Below, piece by piece: positions 25,834-30,243 of a DNA stretch of 46,268 bases. The notes beneath the pieces are model-generated. The model was not told the DNA's origin. It worked only from the letters and a program-made list of their open reading frames with translations, and did not search any database. Position numbers and translations under genes: made by a program. The DNA lies in assembly GCA_027491785.1 (NCBI GenBank), contig JAOZGJ010000060.1:1-46268 (forward strand). The letters run 5' to 3'. This stretch comes from Thermoproteota archaeon. GTDB lineage: Archaea > Korarchaeota > Korarchaeia > Korarchaeales > Korarchaeaceae. Numbering within the stretch: position 1 is the stretch's first letter; every line of letters begins with the position of its first letter.

Positions 25834-25846
25834 GGGAATAGATAGA

Positions 25847-25924
25847 TGGTGCTCCGGCCGGGATTTGAACCCGGGTCTGGGGCTCGAGAGGCCCCTATGC
25901 TTAACCGGGCTACACCACCGGAGC
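25847..25924 (-). tRNA. tRNA-Glu(CUC), with encoded CCA
   Basis: On the minus strand the acceptor GCTCCGG pairs with CCGGAGC. The anticodon stem GGGGC/GCCCC carries loop CTCTCGA with anticodon CUC, and the T arm is CCGGG/CCCGG around TTCAAAT. Discriminator A is followed by an encoded CCA, ending at 25847. The body is 75 bases. The sequence agrees closely with archaeal tRNA-Glu. The two tRNA-Val genes in this window do not encode CCA. Confidence 0.93.
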
Positions 25925-25947
25925 CCAATTCATGGGATGTATCTGAG

Positions 25948-25957
25948 GAATATAAAC
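25948..25957 (-). promoter_or_regulatory. Promoter of tRNA-Glu
   Basis: GTTTATATTC on the minus strand is centred about 28 bp upstream of the tRNA 5' end, the archaeal TATA distance. It lies inside the stretch upstream of the AK6-like gene on the other strand. Confidence 0.6.
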
Positions 25958-25986
25958 GTTTCCCGGAGAGAGGACATCTTGGTGGT

Positions 25987-26550
25987 ATAGTCGTTGTAAT
26001 AGGGGCTCCTGGTTCTGGCAAGACCACGATAGCTAGGAAACTGGCATCGAATATCGGATGCAGCTATCTAAATGTTGGGTCGCTAGCTAGAGAGAGGGGA
26101 TACATTTTAGGAATTGATAGGGAGAGAGATTCCCTCATTCTAGATGAGGAATTGATTGTAGATGAAATAAGGAGATTAGCCCATGAAAAGTGCCTGGTCG
26201 TCGAAACTATCGCCCCAAATACAATACCAAGAGAATTAGTGAGGGCTGTTATAGTAGTTAGATGCAGACCCTCAGTTCTTTTAGAGAGATTGAAATCGAG
26301 AAAGTATTCCCTAAGTAAGATAAGGGAGAACATAGAGTATGAAGCTATAGATGGACCCGTTTATGATGCTTTATTGATAGCCGATAGGGAGAGAATAGTG
26401 GAGGTAGATGGCTGCGATAAGGAGGTAGAAAATGAAATTGAGGTTATTTTAGATCTTTTAAGGGGGAAAATTACTGGGAGAATAGGGAAGTTCAATTGGT
26501 CCAAGGATTTCATGGAGATACTTGACGCTCTGTCTCAAGATGGCCAATAG
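25987..26550 (+). CDS. AK6/Fap7-like P-loop nucleotide kinase, no standard start codon
   Basis: About 187 residues with Walker A GAPGSGKTT near the N-terminus, CSYLNVGSLARERG, a DEEL acidic region, VVETIAPNTIP and VVRCRPSVLLERLKSRKYS, as in adenylate kinase-like Fap7/AK6 proteins. Those are ATPases/adenylate kinases involved in small-subunit ribosome maturation. Between the tRNA-Glu and the P-loop there is no in-frame ATG, GTG or TTG. The nearest upstream ATG (25846) would translate antisense through the tRNA and is rejected. ATA 25987, giving (M)VVVIGAPGSGKT, or GTC 25990 downstream of GGTG, is the probable start. The 3' end overlaps the convergent HerA-like gene by 16 bp. Confidence 0.7.
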   Translation: MVVVIGAPGSGKTTIARKLASNIGCSYLNVGSLARERGYILGIDRERDSLILDEELIVDEIRRLAHEKCLVVETIAPNTIPRELVRAVIVVRCRPSVLLERLKSRKYSLSKIRENIEYEAIDGPVYDALLIADRERIVEVDGCDKEVENEIEVILDLLRGKITGRIGKFNWSKDFMEILDALSQDGQ

Positions 26551-28277
26551 AATGGGGTATATCTTAAGATCCTCTCCATGGCCTTCGTATCAATAGATCT
26601 TTCCTCAACAGGAGATACCATCGCCCTATATACTGAGTTTGGAGTTATCATCAGGCATTCCCCTTGAGAAAGCGAGGTTACAGTATTAAGGAGTTTCTTC
26701 TCTCCTATAATGGATCTAAGTGCCCTCAAATCAGAAGGCGATTCCACCCTGTGGAATATTTTCGTTCCTGTATTCCTCACTACACCTTCCGGTATATCTG
26801 CCAGGCTCTGTGCTATTAGTATGAGAGAAACTCCGAACTTTCTGAGTTCCGAGAACAGCCTATCTACTATGTCCATTCCAGTAATATCGTTATAGTGAGG
26901 TATAAGCTTCTCAGCCTCCTCTATTATTATAAGGATCCTTGGATAGAGAGTTTTCCCTTCTTCCCTTACAAAGCGATCCTTTACTCTCTTTAGAATGAAG
27001 AACACTATTAACTGCTTCAATATATCGCTCCTTACGTCCCCGATATCTATAAGGGAGAGAGAATTACCTAGCTTCTCTATGCTTAAATCACCGCAATTGA
27101 ATATCTCGGATCCTTCCGACGTGAGTATGGGATCAAGCTTCCTGATCAATGAAGCTCTACTCTCTTCCTCTGCCTGTGATGCTAAACTCATACTCCTGAG
27201 CTCGGACAGCAGATCCCTCATCGAAGGAGCGCTCTCCCCTAGTGATTGATCCCTAACCCTTTTGAGGCCCTTCATCAGGAGATAAAACTGAGAAGGGGTT
27301 AGATCTAAGATACTAGATAGAGTCTCAGCGAGCAGGAAGATCTCCTTCTCATCCTCATTCTCATTTCCCCCATGCATCCATGCGAGAGGGTTTATGCAGA
27401 TAGAGGGTAGTCCCTCTTTTGCGGTGAATATTCTGCCTCCGAGCTGAAATATCAGGGACTTATATTCCCAATGTATATCTAGGACTAGAGATGGTATTCC
27501 CAGATTCCATGCCTCGTACAATATCCTCTTAGACGTCGTGGTCTTGCCAGAACCAGTCTGGCCCACAATTAAGACATGCCTTGACATGTCCGCCAATGGA
27601 ATACCTACACTCCTCTCCCTATACTCGCCTATCTGTAGAGCAGGTATCTCGTTTTTCTCTTCCCTCCCGAAAATCAAACCTTTAAGTTCCTCGGATTCCC
27701 TATTCAAGCCTAAGTTCAAGAGTTCAGATAAGACCTCCGGATGCAATGAAAAACTTTCATCTACTCTAAGCTTAATCCCATCAATGGAACTATTGAGAGC
27801 TGAGAGAGTGGCTTTAAGGCTATTTTCTACCTCGCTAGGATTTCCCAGAGGGGACCATAGTAGTAGCTTAGTACTCGTTCCCCCTCCTATTCTCTGATTG
27901 AAGAACTTCCTGCTAGACCACTTAGTTATCAGTAAGGACATCCCGACTCCCATGTCTTCTAGGATATCTTTCATCTTATCTAGGTCCAATTGGGAATTCT
28001 GGTCTTCAACCCGTAATTCTACTGGGAGAATCAGGTACCTTCTCCCCTTAGACTCTACGATCAACTTATTTTGCAATGAAATAGGGCTGTAGATCTTCCT
28101 CCTATTATTAAAGAACATGATAAGCGAGAAAATTATTACAATGAGCGAGAGGACGTCTAAAGTGAGCTGGTATTTACTGATTAATGAGGAGATTGTATCT
28201 AGCCTCTTGTATATATAGATAGCGGCTAGCGCAATCGCTGCTAGGGATATAGATCTGCTTTCCCTATCTAGCTTCAA
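26535..28277 (-). CDS. Membrane-anchored HerA-like ATPase
   Basis: A 580-residue FtsK/HerA-superfamily ATPase. Two membrane segments (about 11-24 and 39-56) precede a beta-rich region and the ATPase core with Walker A GQTGSGKTT (from residue 239), LDIHWEYKSL, Walker B LIIIEEAEKLIP and the HerA-type ending SLILIAQSLADIPEGVVRNTGTKIF. HerA normally pairs with NurA nuclease in end resection, but no nurA is near and membrane anchoring is unlike it. AAGAGG 7 nt before TTG 28277 favours that start; TTG 28295 is an alternative. The start lies inside the coiled-coil gene, which in turn overlaps tfb. A membrane-tethered DNA or protein pump is inferred. Confidence 0.8.
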   Translation of the reverse strand: MKLDRESRSISLAAIALAAIYIYKRLDTISSLISKYQLTLDVLSLIVIIFSLIMFFNNRRKIYSPISLQNKLIVESKGRRYLILPVELRVEDQNSQLDLDKMKDILEDMGVGMSLLITKWSSRKFFNQRIGGGTSTKLLLWSPLGNPSEVENSLKATLSALNSSIDGIKLRVDESFSLHPEVLSELLNLGLNRESEELKGLIFGREEKNEIPALQIGEYRERSVGIPLADMSRHVLIVGQTGSGKTTTSKRILYEAWNLGIPSLVLDIHWEYKSLIFQLGGRIFTAKEGLPSICINPLAWMHGGNENEDEKEIFLLAETLSSILDLTPSQFYLLMKGLKRVRDQSLGESAPSMRDLLSELRSMSLASQAEEESRASLIRKLDPILTSEGSEIFNCGDLSIEKLGNSLSLIDIGDVRSDILKQLIVFFILKRVKDRFVREEGKTLYPRILIIIEEAEKLIPHYNDITGMDIVDRLFSELRKFGVSLILIAQSLADIPEGVVRNTGTKIFHRVESPSDLRALRSIIGEKKLLNTVTSLSQGECLMITPNSVYRAMVSPVEERSIDTKAMERILRYTPFYWPS

Positions 28278-28416
28278 GGTCCATCCTCTTCTCAACTATG
28301 TCAAGCCTATTTTCAATATCGCTTATTCTCTTCATTAACTCATCAAGTTTAAAGAAGAGGAATTCTATTTGGTTAGAAATAGATTCTATCTCGAATTTAA
28401 CTTCCTCGTAGCTCAA
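28264..28416 (-). CDS. 50-residue coiled-coil protein
   Basis: A TTG-initiated frame of 50 codons lies between the TFB and HerA-like genes and overlaps both, by 20 bp with tfb and 14 bp with the ATPase gene. The peptide is a near-continuous heptad coiled coil rich in E, K, I and L (KFEIESISNQIEFLFFKLDE, then IENRLDIVEKRMDLEAR). No family is recognised. Overlaps on both sides and strong coding character argue that it is real and that all three products are made together. It may bridge TFB or the ATPase to a partner or drive oligomerisation. Confidence 0.6.
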   Translation of the reverse strand: MSYEEVKFEIESISNQIEFLFFKLDELMKRISDIENRLDIVEKRMDLEAR

Positions 28417-29155
28417 CTTTTCCTCCCCTTACCACGGATAATGCCTTAGAAATTGTCGATCTGTTCGCACCTAAAGCGTCAGCCAGCAGGCCTTGAGATA
28501 GCCTTCTTATCCCAATTTTCTTGCTGACTATGTAGATCACTGCAGCGGCAATGTATATGGGGTTCCTGCCGGCTATGCGAGATCTCTTACTTCTCCTCAC
28601 TTTGTTTATTTCCTTTATGGAATTTATCCTGAGTCTTTCTATTATCATGTGATGAGGTACTTTCCCTGAGGTTTGCTTAAGGCATTCTATAATTCTCTCA
28701 TCCTTAGATAATTTACCAATGAGATAATTAATGTAACCTTCCCATGATATGCCCCTCCTCGGAAGGACATCCTCTAGGATGCCTATTGTCAGAACCAAGC
28801 GAGAGGGAGATATCCTAGGGTACTTCTTACAGACTTCTTTAATTGGTATGGATATGCCATATGATCTAGCTGCGATTATCACGGAAGCAACTAGTATGGA
28901 TGGGGTAGCTCTTTTACCTGTATTGACTTCATAATTAGAGACTATTTCCTCAGCTATCTTAGAAACCTCATCAGGTAGATCCAGCCTTAAAGCTATGTTA
29001 TCTATCGACCTAAATCTATTTTTAGCGTAGTGATCTCCGTCGAACACGCTAGGTAACAGCTCCTCATCAACAATGTAACCGCAATTGCTGCAGACAAGCA
29101 AGCCATTCTCCCTAATTAGGGGGGAACCGCAGAGAGGACATACTCTCTTATACAT
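28397..29155 (-). CDS. tfb: Divergent transcription factor B (TFB) paralogue
   Basis: A 252-residue TFIIB-like factor with an N-terminal zinc ribbon (C6, C9, C22, C25) and two cyclin repeats (about 60-145 and 160-245), including GISIPIKEVCKKYPRISPSRL and the DNA-recognition RLSQGLLADALGANRSTISKAL. Canonical archaeal TFB is about 300 residues; here the B-reader and linker between ribbon and first cyclin fold are short (FDGDHYAKNRFRSIDN). An upstream open frame adds AT-rich residues, so ATG 29155 (or GTG 29158) is taken, with TATA-like sequences just before. It overlaps the coiled-coil gene. It is probably a specialised paralogue rather than the general factor. Confidence 0.85.
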   Translation of the reverse strand: MYKRVCPLCGSPLIRENGLLVCSNCGYIVDEELLPSVFDGDHYAKNRFRSIDNIALRLDLPDEVSKIAEEIVSNYEVNTGKRATPSILVASVIIAARSYGISIPIKEVCKKYPRISPSRLVLTIGILEDVLPRRGISWEGYINYLIGKLSKDERIIECLKQTSGKVPHHMIIERLRINSIKEINKVRRSKRSRIAGRNPIYIAAAVIYIVSKKIGIRRLSQGLLADALGANRSTISKALSVVRGGKVELRGS

Positions 29156-29255
29156 CACTATGATTAATATTTCAATAATATTAATATTTCTCACGCGAAA
29201 TAAAAATAAAAATTTCATTAATGAGTCTGATATATAATTTAATTAATTAAATGGA

Positions 29256-29591
29256 TTATTTGGAGAATTTCATAACGAGATATACCTCCTGATCCTCATC
29301 CAGCTTAAAGGGAATTGGACCCTTGTAAGTCATCCTAAGCCAGAGTCCATGAAAAGATATCTCTATTCGTTTTGAATCATTATCTACCTTATAGACGTGG
29401 CCTTTCATCACGAGATCTCCATCTTCCTCCTCACCTATATTTAAAAGGGCCTTAGATCCTTTTTTAAGCTTTAAGAGCCCTTTTGGAACCTCTAGGGTGA
29501 ACTTTAATGACTCATTCTCTGAGGAAAATTTCAGGATATCTAGCTCAAATGCTGGATCTTGCCTAATGGATTTGAGAGTGACTTCTATCAT
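29256..29591 (-). CDS. rpoG: RNA polymerase subunit RpoG (Rpb8 homologue)
   Basis: A 111-residue protein with the Rpb8 signature near the C-terminus: LVMKGHVYKVD, then IEISFHGLWLRMTY and FKLDEDQEVYLVMKF, which align with the VMYGKVY, SYGGLLMRL and VDSRVYLLMKK blocks of eukaryotic Rpb8. The N-terminal half has alternating beta strands (FTLEVPKGLLKLKKGSKALL), as in the family's OB-like fold. Archaeal Rpb8 is known from Crenarchaeota and Korarchaeota. ATG 29591 is preceded by GGTGAA with 6-nt spacing; a longer frame to 29645 lacks family similarity. It lies just downstream of the divergent helical gene's start. Confidence 0.75.
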   Translation of the reverse strand: MIEVTLKSIRQDPAFELDILKFSSENESLKFTLEVPKGLLKLKKGSKALLNIGEEEDGDLVMKGHVYKVDNDSKRIEISFHGLWLRMTYKGPIPFKLDEDQEVYLVMKFSK

Positions 29592-29653
29592 TAAACTTTC
29601 ACCGGCTGATTGCGAGATCTTATAGGTAAAAAACATACGCCACAAATAGATTG

Positions 29654-29923
29654 ATGTCCTTGAGTCATATACTGGAGCTTAATGAGGAGCTCAGACAGAG
29701 AGTAAGGGTAAATCTTATGTTAGACGAGAGAATAGATATGAACGAGGTTCTAGATTACTTAGAAGAGATATATGAAATGCTTAGACTGACAGATCGTCTC
29801 ATATCAATGAGGAGCATCTTAGAGGAGGAAGCCCCTACCATAGTTAAGGTGAAACTTCTATTGGCAGGACTATCGGAGGATTTAGCTGATTATTTAGAAA
29901 GGGAATCGAGGAAAACGATATAA
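29654..29923 (+). CDS. Small helical protein of unknown function
   Basis: An 89-residue, wholly helical, acidic protein (for example NEVLDYLEEIYEMLRLTDRL) without cysteines or membrane segments. I do not recognise the family. ATG 29654 is preferred over TTG 29651. It is divergent from rpoG with about 60 bp between starts and converges on the PRC-barrel gene. A helical bundle or dimer is likely from the pattern. Confidence 0.55.
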   Translation: MSLSHILELNEELRQRVRVNLMLDERIDMNEVLDYLEEIYEMLRLTDRLISMRSILEEEAPTIVKVKLLLAGLSEDLADYLERESRKTI

Positions 29924-29936
29924 TCTGATATGATAA

Positions 29937-30218
29937 CTATCCCTTAGTTGCTATATACACTTTAAGAAGTCTCTCATCTACTACGATCATCTCTCTTATG
30001 TACTTAACTGTTGAGTAGGGGATCAAGATATTCCCCTTTCTATCTCTCCTCAGCTTCTGAAGCAGAGCATCAGCAGCTCCTCTACTGCTCCTGATAACTA
30101 GGGAAATCATCTTTCCCGTTATCTCATCGACTACTAAGTCTGTGACTTCGCCTAACATAAGGCCTTTATCCGTTATTATGGGTTTCCCAGCCAGTCTAGA
30201 CACAGAATATCGAGCCAT
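29937..30218 (-). CDS. PRC-barrel domain protein
   Basis: A 93-residue single PRC-barrel: ARYSVSRLAGKPIITDKG, LGEVTDLVVDEITGKMISLVI, NILIPYSTVKYIREMIVVDE. Such small archaeal PRC-barrels (COG1873) occur near translation and cell-division genes; RimM has the same fold. Role unknown. ATG 30218 gives the family's usual N-terminus; TTG 30236 is possible. It ends the minus-strand block and starts 26 bp downstream of the tRNA-Val. Confidence 0.8.
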   Translation of the reverse strand: MARYSVSRLAGKPIITDKGLMLGEVTDLVVDEITGKMISLVIRSSRGAADALLQKLRRDRKGNILIPYSTVKYIREMIVVDERLLKVYIATKG

Positions 30219-30243
30219 CCTCCATTCCCTCTCCAATAATACA

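Follow-up and report, generated by a model that had tools for sequence, protein, structure and literature searches.

On the minus strand of a 46,268-nt stretch of korarchaeal DNA (contig JAOZGJ010000060.1 of assembly GCA_027491785.1, Thermoproteota archaeon, Korarchaeaceae; the whole stretch is called the window below), three genes overlap in series. They encode a short, divergent paralogue of transcription factor B (TFB), a 50-residue coiled-coil microprotein and a membrane-anchored ATPase of the FtsK/HerA superfamily that resembles CedD, the motor of the Ced DNA-import system of the Sulfolobales (Table 1). All three open reading frames that an earlier note had described for this locus are present, with an overlap of 20 nt between the TFB and coiled-coil genes and one of 32 nt between the coiled-coil and ATPase genes; the latter shrinks to 14 nt should translation of the ATPase begin at the TTG of position 28277. 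The account of the neighbourhood given in that note was incomplete in one respect: it missed the gene for RNA polymerase subunit G (rpoG), which lies on the same strand 100 nt ahead of the TFB gene. A longer reading of the TFB gene from position 29218 is unlikely, because a conserved promoter element occupies positions 29204-29217.

Table 1. The three overlapping genes and their flanking features, in window coordinates.
Feature	Position	Strand	Description
TFB paralogue	28397..29155	-	252 aa, ATG start; zinc ribbon, two cyclin repeats, C-terminal helix-turn-helix (HTH)
Coiled-coil microprotein	28264..28416	-	50 aa, TTG start; overlaps the genes on both sides
CedD-like FtsK/HerA-superfamily ATPase	26535..28295	-	586 aa, TTG start; P-loop at residues 245-252
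ATPase domain order: two N-terminal helices, N-terminal domain (NTD), P-loop core	26535..28295	-	
Probable own promoter of the TFB operon	29156..29255	-	Identified by eye in the alignment
rpoG/rpb8, RNA polymerase subunit G	29256..29645	-	PF16992 3.6e-6; conserved neighbour, directly upstream of TFB
AAA_18 (CMP/adenylate-kinase-like) gene	25846..26550	+	Convergent; locus marker in other archaea rather than a functional component

The TFB paralogue combines a zinc ribbon (CPLCG..CSNCG) with two cyclin repeats, as previously proposed, and matches the Pfam family TFIIB in two stretches (E 2.9e-9). A search of PDB sequences returned TFIIB (5wh1, 2e-5), and the predicted structure (predicted local distance difference test, pLDDT, 80; predicted template modelling score, pTM, 0.49) matched a chain of the human pre-initiation complex best (7eg8, 3.7e-7), along with TFIIB (1vol, 8e-5) and an archaeal TFB (1d3u, TMt 0.52). 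The same genome has a canonical TFB as well, encoded separately on contig C75 (genomes, contigs and loci are cited by our own G, C and L numbers). From it, the paralogue differs in the distance between zinc ribbon and first repeat, which amounts to 36 residues as against 92 in the canonical protein and a median of 103 in 21 other TFBs, and in the recognition helix of its HTH motif, which does not show the canonical TEVTVRNRYK pattern. The paralogue, in which most of the B-reader/linker region is missing, is probably unable to replace canonical TFB. In a tree of TFBs, from which the Sulfolobales TFB3 proteins were omitted as too short, 20 of 22 other TFBs form one group with the canonical TFB (support 96) and 19 of 21 korarchaeal copies form another (support 96). 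As a separate observation, the span from CxxC to CxxC within the ribbon measures 20 residues in all 13 ribbon-bearing korarchaeal TFBs and 20-21 in all 10 TFBs from the pilus clusters described below; it measures 22-23 residues in 19 of 21 other TFBs, 23 in the canonical TFB of the window's genome and 23 in eight of eight TFB3s.

The coiled-coil gene, whose product the earlier note had likewise recognised, is very probably real, because it combines a clear heptad pattern with an excess of third-position substitutions. Its a/d positions are 86% hydrophobic, compared with a mean of 57% in shuffled sequences (none of 2000 as high), and the pattern is significant in the six copies tested; third codon positions hold 23 of the 35 substitutions that separate the gene from its nearest relative. 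All 14 members of the genus whose junction is intact have it, the window included, and inspection by eye adds L052, L054 and L058, hence at least 17 of 24 loci. Five loci (L050, L051, L055, L056 and L057) have no such gene, and their TFB and motor genes overlap directly by 4-11 nt; L049 is ambiguous, and in L053 the start of the motor gene is uncertain.

The ATPase finds its top NCBIfam match in CedD (NF053655; 2e-47), compared with 1.3e-13 for CedB and 1.6e-13 for HerA, and a CedD match at E ≤ 1e-20 exists in 29 of 29 korarchaeal genomes, a sample that includes the genome of the window. Because its score of 162.1 bits lies below the curated NCBI cut-off for this family (600 bits), we file it as CedD-like rather than as a CedD equivalog. 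A quick maximum-likelihood tree was built from 53 ATPase domains, with support from the Shimodaira-Hasegawa-like approximate likelihood-ratio test (SH-aLRT); L224, L226, L227, L229, L273 and L275 were left out, as the P-loop pattern used was not present in them. In this tree, the korarchaeal motors group with CedD and the pilus-cluster motors (support 88), apart from HerA (100) and CedB (100). The window ATPase falls together with 13 other korarchaeal copies (support 89), and the fifteenth copy, L057, lies outside. The HerA protein of the same genome belongs to the HerA group, and its gene is located on another contig with NurA (by Pfam) and genes reading as Mre11 and Rad50. The strongest matches to the CedB profile turned out to be the same CedD-like motor, and a CedB-like identity of the motor can be discarded, given that the CedB cut-off was reached in none of the 28 genomes searched.

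The architecture of the ATPase corresponds to that described for CedD, in which N-terminal membrane helices and an NTD precede a HerA/VirB4-type core (PMC11868833; here and below, statements on published work refer to the accessible parts of the sources). An AlphaFold2 model that omits the first residue (pLDDT 78, pTM 0.62) places two N-terminal helices at model residues 10-37 and 42-63, followed by the P-loop ATPase core, to which VirB4 (4ag6) can be aligned with a TMt of 0.72. Two membrane helices had already been claimed for this protein, then called HerA-like; the model agrees with their number, a hydropathy scan gives one clear membrane segment, and the ATPase itself is not HerA. Among 15 korarchaeal motor copies, the hydropathy scan finds two segments in nine and at least one in 14, compared with an N-terminal membrane segment in none of eight HerA proteins. 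A profile comparison of the N-terminal regions of the korarchaeal motors with hhalign gives a probability of 74.3% against the CedD proteins over the cut-off (E 2.7e-5, 95 columns including the helices), but 0.1% against the other Sulfolobales-order CedDs; the value for HerA is 0.2%.

The pairing of the two larger genes is widely conserved, in line with the check on relatives that the earlier note had proposed. A TFB gene lies directly upstream of the motor gene, on the same strand, in 24 of the 29 korarchaeal genomes, the window included, and the two genes mostly overlap or are closely spaced. In G010 and G013 (L044 and L045), the downstream genes are rearranged and the TFB-motor unit is intact. 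Recurrence on this scale, including the two genomes with a rearranged downstream flank, is far beyond chance. Ahead of TFB, rpoG is found in 23 of the 24 loci, the exception being L054. The motor gene lies at a contig end in G005 and G011; in G027 and G028, TFBs were found on contigs other than those of the CedD matches, the best of which are on contigs of 4-10 kb.

The region between rpoG and TFB contains conserved sequence of its own. Ahead of the window TFB, we find the element TGAAATTTTTATTT (29204-29217) and, a few tens of nucleotides before the ATG, the sequence AGAAATATTAATAT, which resembles a TFB-recognition element (BRE) and TATA box; across the genus, the element reads about TTATGAAAATTTTATTT and is combined with a BRE/TATA-like AGAAATGATTAAAA, again a few tens of nucleotides ahead of the TFB ATG. 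From this conserved GAAAATTTT element of the TFB-operon promoter and the accompanying BRE/TATA-like sequence, we conclude that the TFB-motor operon is probably transcribed from a promoter of its own, perhaps a leaderless one. The exact pattern TGAAAWTTTTATYT, which was derived from these same TFB promoters, has 10 matches in 15 genomes, seven of them at the TFB promoter, compared with two matches of a reversed control pattern; of the remaining three exact matches, two lie at a tRNA gene (G000:C47 and G003:C35) and one before a pilin-like cluster in G003. Read on the opposite strand, the GAAAAT within the korarchaeal element gives ATTTTC, the ups motif of Sulfolobus, which is also located just upstream of the BRE (PMC5817253), a likeness that may be due to chance because the motif is so short and AT-rich.

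A further protein of 95-115 aa, with two membrane helices connected by a basic loop (SDIFSYKGKR) and mostly a signal-peptide-like start, occurs in 25 of the 29 korarchaeal genomes, for instance at L313:9538-9837 and, in the genome of the window, at G000:C87:32819-33112 (L315). In several loci, its gene ends a row of pilin-like genes. The protein resembles a VirB2/CedA1/TedC-type pilin in shape, yet no library searched supports that likeness: for the one member tested (99 aa), Pfam, NCBIfam and PDB sequences gave no support for a relationship to CedA1, TedC or VirB2. Among 13 loci of the pilin-cluster two-helix gene, the TFB promoter element is exact in G003 and has two mismatches in the window's genome and L344; as the other 10 have no site, we treat a shared regulon defined by this element as no more than a lead.

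Loci with related content exist in other members of the TACK archaea (Thaumarchaeota, Aigarchaeota, Crenarchaeota and Korarchaeota). We hand-picked 11 genomes from distant loci (four from Thaumarchaeota/Nitrososphaerota/Nitrososphaeria, two each from Brockarchaeota and Methanomethylicota/Methanosuratincola, one from Bathyarchaeota and two from further archaea), six of which had a TFB match at the locus edge when picked. In 10 of the 11 (L260-L269; the miss is the bathyarchaeotal genome), including four of the five without a prior TFB match, genes for a TFB, a CedD-like motor and a VirB11-type pilus ATPase are clustered within about 10 kb. The TFBs of these clusters measure 311-338 aa and are encoded 4.7-7.0 kb ahead of the motor, on the strand of the motor in nine of ten cases; in L262, the TFB gene is on the opposite strand and one unrelated gene lies in between. 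The pilus ATPase gene is located between TFB and motor in all ten clusters, and those read gene by gene additionally contain genes for pilin-like and TadC-like membrane proteins. Three of the motors were scanned and matched CedD with E-values of 1e-54 to 3e-61. The pilus ATPases gave archaellum, TadA and BasE-type NCBIfam matches, all below the cut-offs, which bears on whether they are true Ups proteins.

In the order Sulfolobales, 88 of 117 sampled genomes have a CedD match at E ≤ 1e-45, and 15 of the 117 exceed the cut-off. We read the loci of 20 of the 88 CedD-positive genomes, namely 11 of the 15 over the cut-off and 9 of the 73 below it. In all 11 over-cut-off loci, presumably those of Sulfolobaceae, the TFB3 gene lies 1.7-5.5 kb from cedD, which converges on a thermosome gene. 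Among the nine below the cut-off, L223 is the sole case with a TFB, whose gene precedes cedD by 77 nt in the same orientation. In total, a TFB is found near cedD in 12 of the 20 loci read. Four others (L221, L224, L225 and L227), as well as L147 from the Pyrodictiaceae, have rpoG directly upstream of cedD and no TFB. As a side observation, the CedD frames of L224, L225 and L227 comprise just 340-351 aa, with nearly no NTD ahead of the P-loop. The flanks of these loci have several genes in common. The motor gene is followed by a convergent AAA_18 kinase gene in most korarchaeal loci (19 of 25), in every pilus cluster (10 of 10) and in 4 of the 21 loci from the Sulfolobales order. The latter two groups also contain a thermosome gene (4 of 10 and 16 of 21, respectively), an Lsm gene (7 of 10 and 16 of 21) and a TGT gene (4 of 10 and 16 of 21). 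These common flanking genes indicate one ancestral locus.

Together with published work, these results lead us to propose that the three genes represent the TFB3/CedD DNA-exchange locus in its korarchaeal form, with the TFB as its regulator, a reading to which we assign a probability of about 0.57. The idea of a DNA-transfer module, one of the options in the earlier note, is thereby supported. Neither outcome that the note had named as refuting its proposal was observed: TFB and motor genes are conserved as a pair in relatives, and the ATPase is no plain HerA beside nurA. The claim made there that TFB paralogues and such motors are joined in no described system no longer holds: for Sulfolobales, activation or co-regulation of the Ced DNA-import and Ups pilus genes by TFB3 has been reported (PMC9905601, PMC6934391, PMC10470591), and the locus tags of S. 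islandicus cedD, the gene of the membrane-anchored HerA/VirB4-type Ced motor (SiRe_1715; PMC11868833), and tfb3 (SiRe_1717; PMC10470591) are two apart. A TFB-CedD locus as such was not found in print, and the accessible main text of PMC11868833, the one paper among those searched to contain both names, mentions TFB3 once, supplements aside, in a reference title. CedD loci resemble the trio in that both a TFB paralogue and rpoG occur in their neighbourhood. TFB3, a DNA-damage-responsive factor described as having no B-finger (PMC2246294), is likewise a shortened paralogue encoded near cedD; the window TFB, with its reduced B-reader/linker, shares the lack of the B-finger region and, like TFB3, retains the zinc ribbon.

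Parts of this association were noticed before. In 2007, rpoG was reported as a codirectional neighbour of a TFB-type gene ('TFIIIB') in the korarchaeote (PMC2234397). In 2016, an operon of rpoG, TFIIB (arCOG05559), a pilus ATPase and a membrane protein was described in Thermoproteales, and TFIIB genes were noted in many pilus loci (PMC4858521). That operon likewise combines rpoG and a TFB variant with a secretion-type machine, for which its authors proposed a transcription-related pathway, but its ATPase is a VirB11-type pilus ATPase, unlike the CedD-like motor of the trio. The arCOG01981 homologue of TFIIB, found in type IV pilus loci of archaea, parallels the TFB paralogues of the clusters in other TACK archaea, whose terminal CedD-like motor goes without mention in the accessible part of PMC4858521.

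If the trio is indeed a DNA-exchange locus, its ATPase may be a membrane-anchored translocase that moves DNA across the membrane, as CedD does in Sulfolobales. Transport would presumably be directed inward and be carried out by an oligomer, and by comparison with Sulfolobales, where DNA imported through CedD serves recombination repair, the operon may be induced by DNA damage. The TFB could activate its own operon, and probably also other exchange genes, either in concert with TBP and canonical TFB or at an altered promoter. Translational coupling through the overlaps would tie the amount of TFB to that of the motor, and it is tempting to speculate that the coiled coil serves as a small assembly or regulatory partner of either protein.

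Several observations weigh against this assignment. At the level of the motor, the CedD score is far below the cut-off, which none of the 29 korarchaeal genomes passes, and CedB did not exceed its own cut-off in any of the 28 genomes searched, 23 of them korarchaeal, a difference from the Ced system. Four long bacterial ATPases fall inside the CedD-side group of the tree, for which the program warns of long branches, and the korarchaeal N-termini match those of the other Sulfolobales-order CedDs with a probability of 0.1% and those of the pilus-cluster motors with 11%. The mutual match between the N-termini of over-cut-off and other CedDs itself reaches only 4%, and, judged from these comparisons, CedD N-termini appear to evolve fast. 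At the level of the locus, G026 has a CedD-family match with no TFB-like gene in the surrounding 16 kb, no TFB was found near cedD in 8 of the 20 Sulfolobales-order loci read, and in L222, L226, L228 and L229 neither TFB nor rpoG was found there. The korarchaeal genes form an overlapping operon with a coiled coil, whereas tfb3 stands apart from cedD, and the 25 korarchaeal loci contain no thermosome or TGT gene and a single Lsm gene (L054). At the level of the TFB, the two families have been reduced in opposite ways: the zinc ribbon is kept and the HTH absent in TFB3 (PMC2246294), whereas the window TFB has both repeats and the HTH, and among 21 korarchaeal TFBs (a count that leaves aside L039, L040 and L058) eight have lost the zinc ribbon and retain the HTH. 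The short interval between ribbon and first repeat is not seen in TFB3 (58-88 residues), a measure that is unsure because the TFB3 core is shortened and degenerate. Finally, a single clade of korarchaeal and pilus-cluster TFBs is neither rejected (p 0.36) nor shown.

The strongest competing explanation, which we consider possible yet clearly less likely, is that the korarchaeal TFB has ceased to be a transcription factor and serves the translocase as a loader or DNA-binding subunit. The cyclin core and HTH would then hold or select DNA and pass it to the membrane motor, and the coiled coil would provide a linker. Such a role would fit the position of its gene immediately before that of the motor and the changes in linker and recognition helix. 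It also gains from the fate of the zinc ribbon, which docks TFB to RNA polymerase (PMC2246294): the ribbon was lost at about four points of the TFB tree, and the genes concerned lie 64-79 nt from rpoG, or at a negative distance, leaving too little room for a ribbon. Since this loss would remove the known polymerase contact, it keeps the subunit explanation alive and constitutes a weak point of a regulatory role. Regulation is favoured by the conserved promoter elements and the published precedent of TFB3, and the ribbon is retained by all 10 TFBs of the other TACK clusters, in which the linker is long as well. A broader version, in our view somewhat more doubtful still, would have a TFB-fold protein bind DNA, perhaps at promoter-like sites, and feed it to the membrane motor, an arrangement tracing back to an ancestral TACK island in which a TFB, a CedD-like motor and a type IV pilus were united.

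It is rather improbable that the trio is merely co-expressed with rpoG in a growth- or transcription-linked operon whose TFB and motor do not cooperate. The near-constant presence of rpoG upstream and the neighbourhood reported in 2007 speak for such an arrangement, but the TFB appears to own a conserved promoter, it accompanies the motor where no rpoG was found (L054 and the ten pilus clusters), and the Sulfolobales literature connects TFB3 functionally with Ced. An anti-phage or plasmid-linked HerA-type module, the defence option of the earlier note, is very improbable and was set aside: PADLOC, run on the ATPase and the TFB, did match the motor to HerA (5.5e-22), mads_8 (1.6e-21) and DndH, but all of these matches concern the shared core ATPase domain, no partner effector gene is present among the nine neighbours scanned by Pfam, and the surroundings of the operon are stable throughout the phylum. 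A plain HerA end-resection helicase can be dismissed with still greater confidence, despite the common superfamily and the top Foldseek match of the model to HerA (4d2i, 2e-18), since the motor differs from HerA in clade, NTD and membrane segment and the genome has its own HerA-NurA locus elsewhere, no nurA being seen among the scanned neighbours of the trio, as the earlier note had stated.

The immediate surroundings of the operon include a few further genes. A tRNA-Glu(CTC) gene (25847-25924, minus strand) overlaps the start of the longest AAA_18 kinase frame, whose true start therefore probably lies further in, downstream of the tRNA. Just upstream of rpoG lies a gene for a 90-aa protein without a Pfam match (29651-29923, plus strand), and a PRC-barrel gene (29937-30236, minus strand), also upstream of rpoG, recurs in 13 korarchaeal loci.

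Collectively, our findings give a genomic setting for the link between TFB3 and Ced known from Sulfolobus, with a regulator and a motor gene sharing one neighbourhood in several TACK groups. They predict DNA exchange in korarchaea and in the cluster-bearing Nitrososphaeria, Brockarchaeota and Methanomethylicia, name candidate genes for it and suggest that regulator, pilus and motor may once have formed one island. Moreover, they make it testable why some archaea retain odd TFB paralogues.

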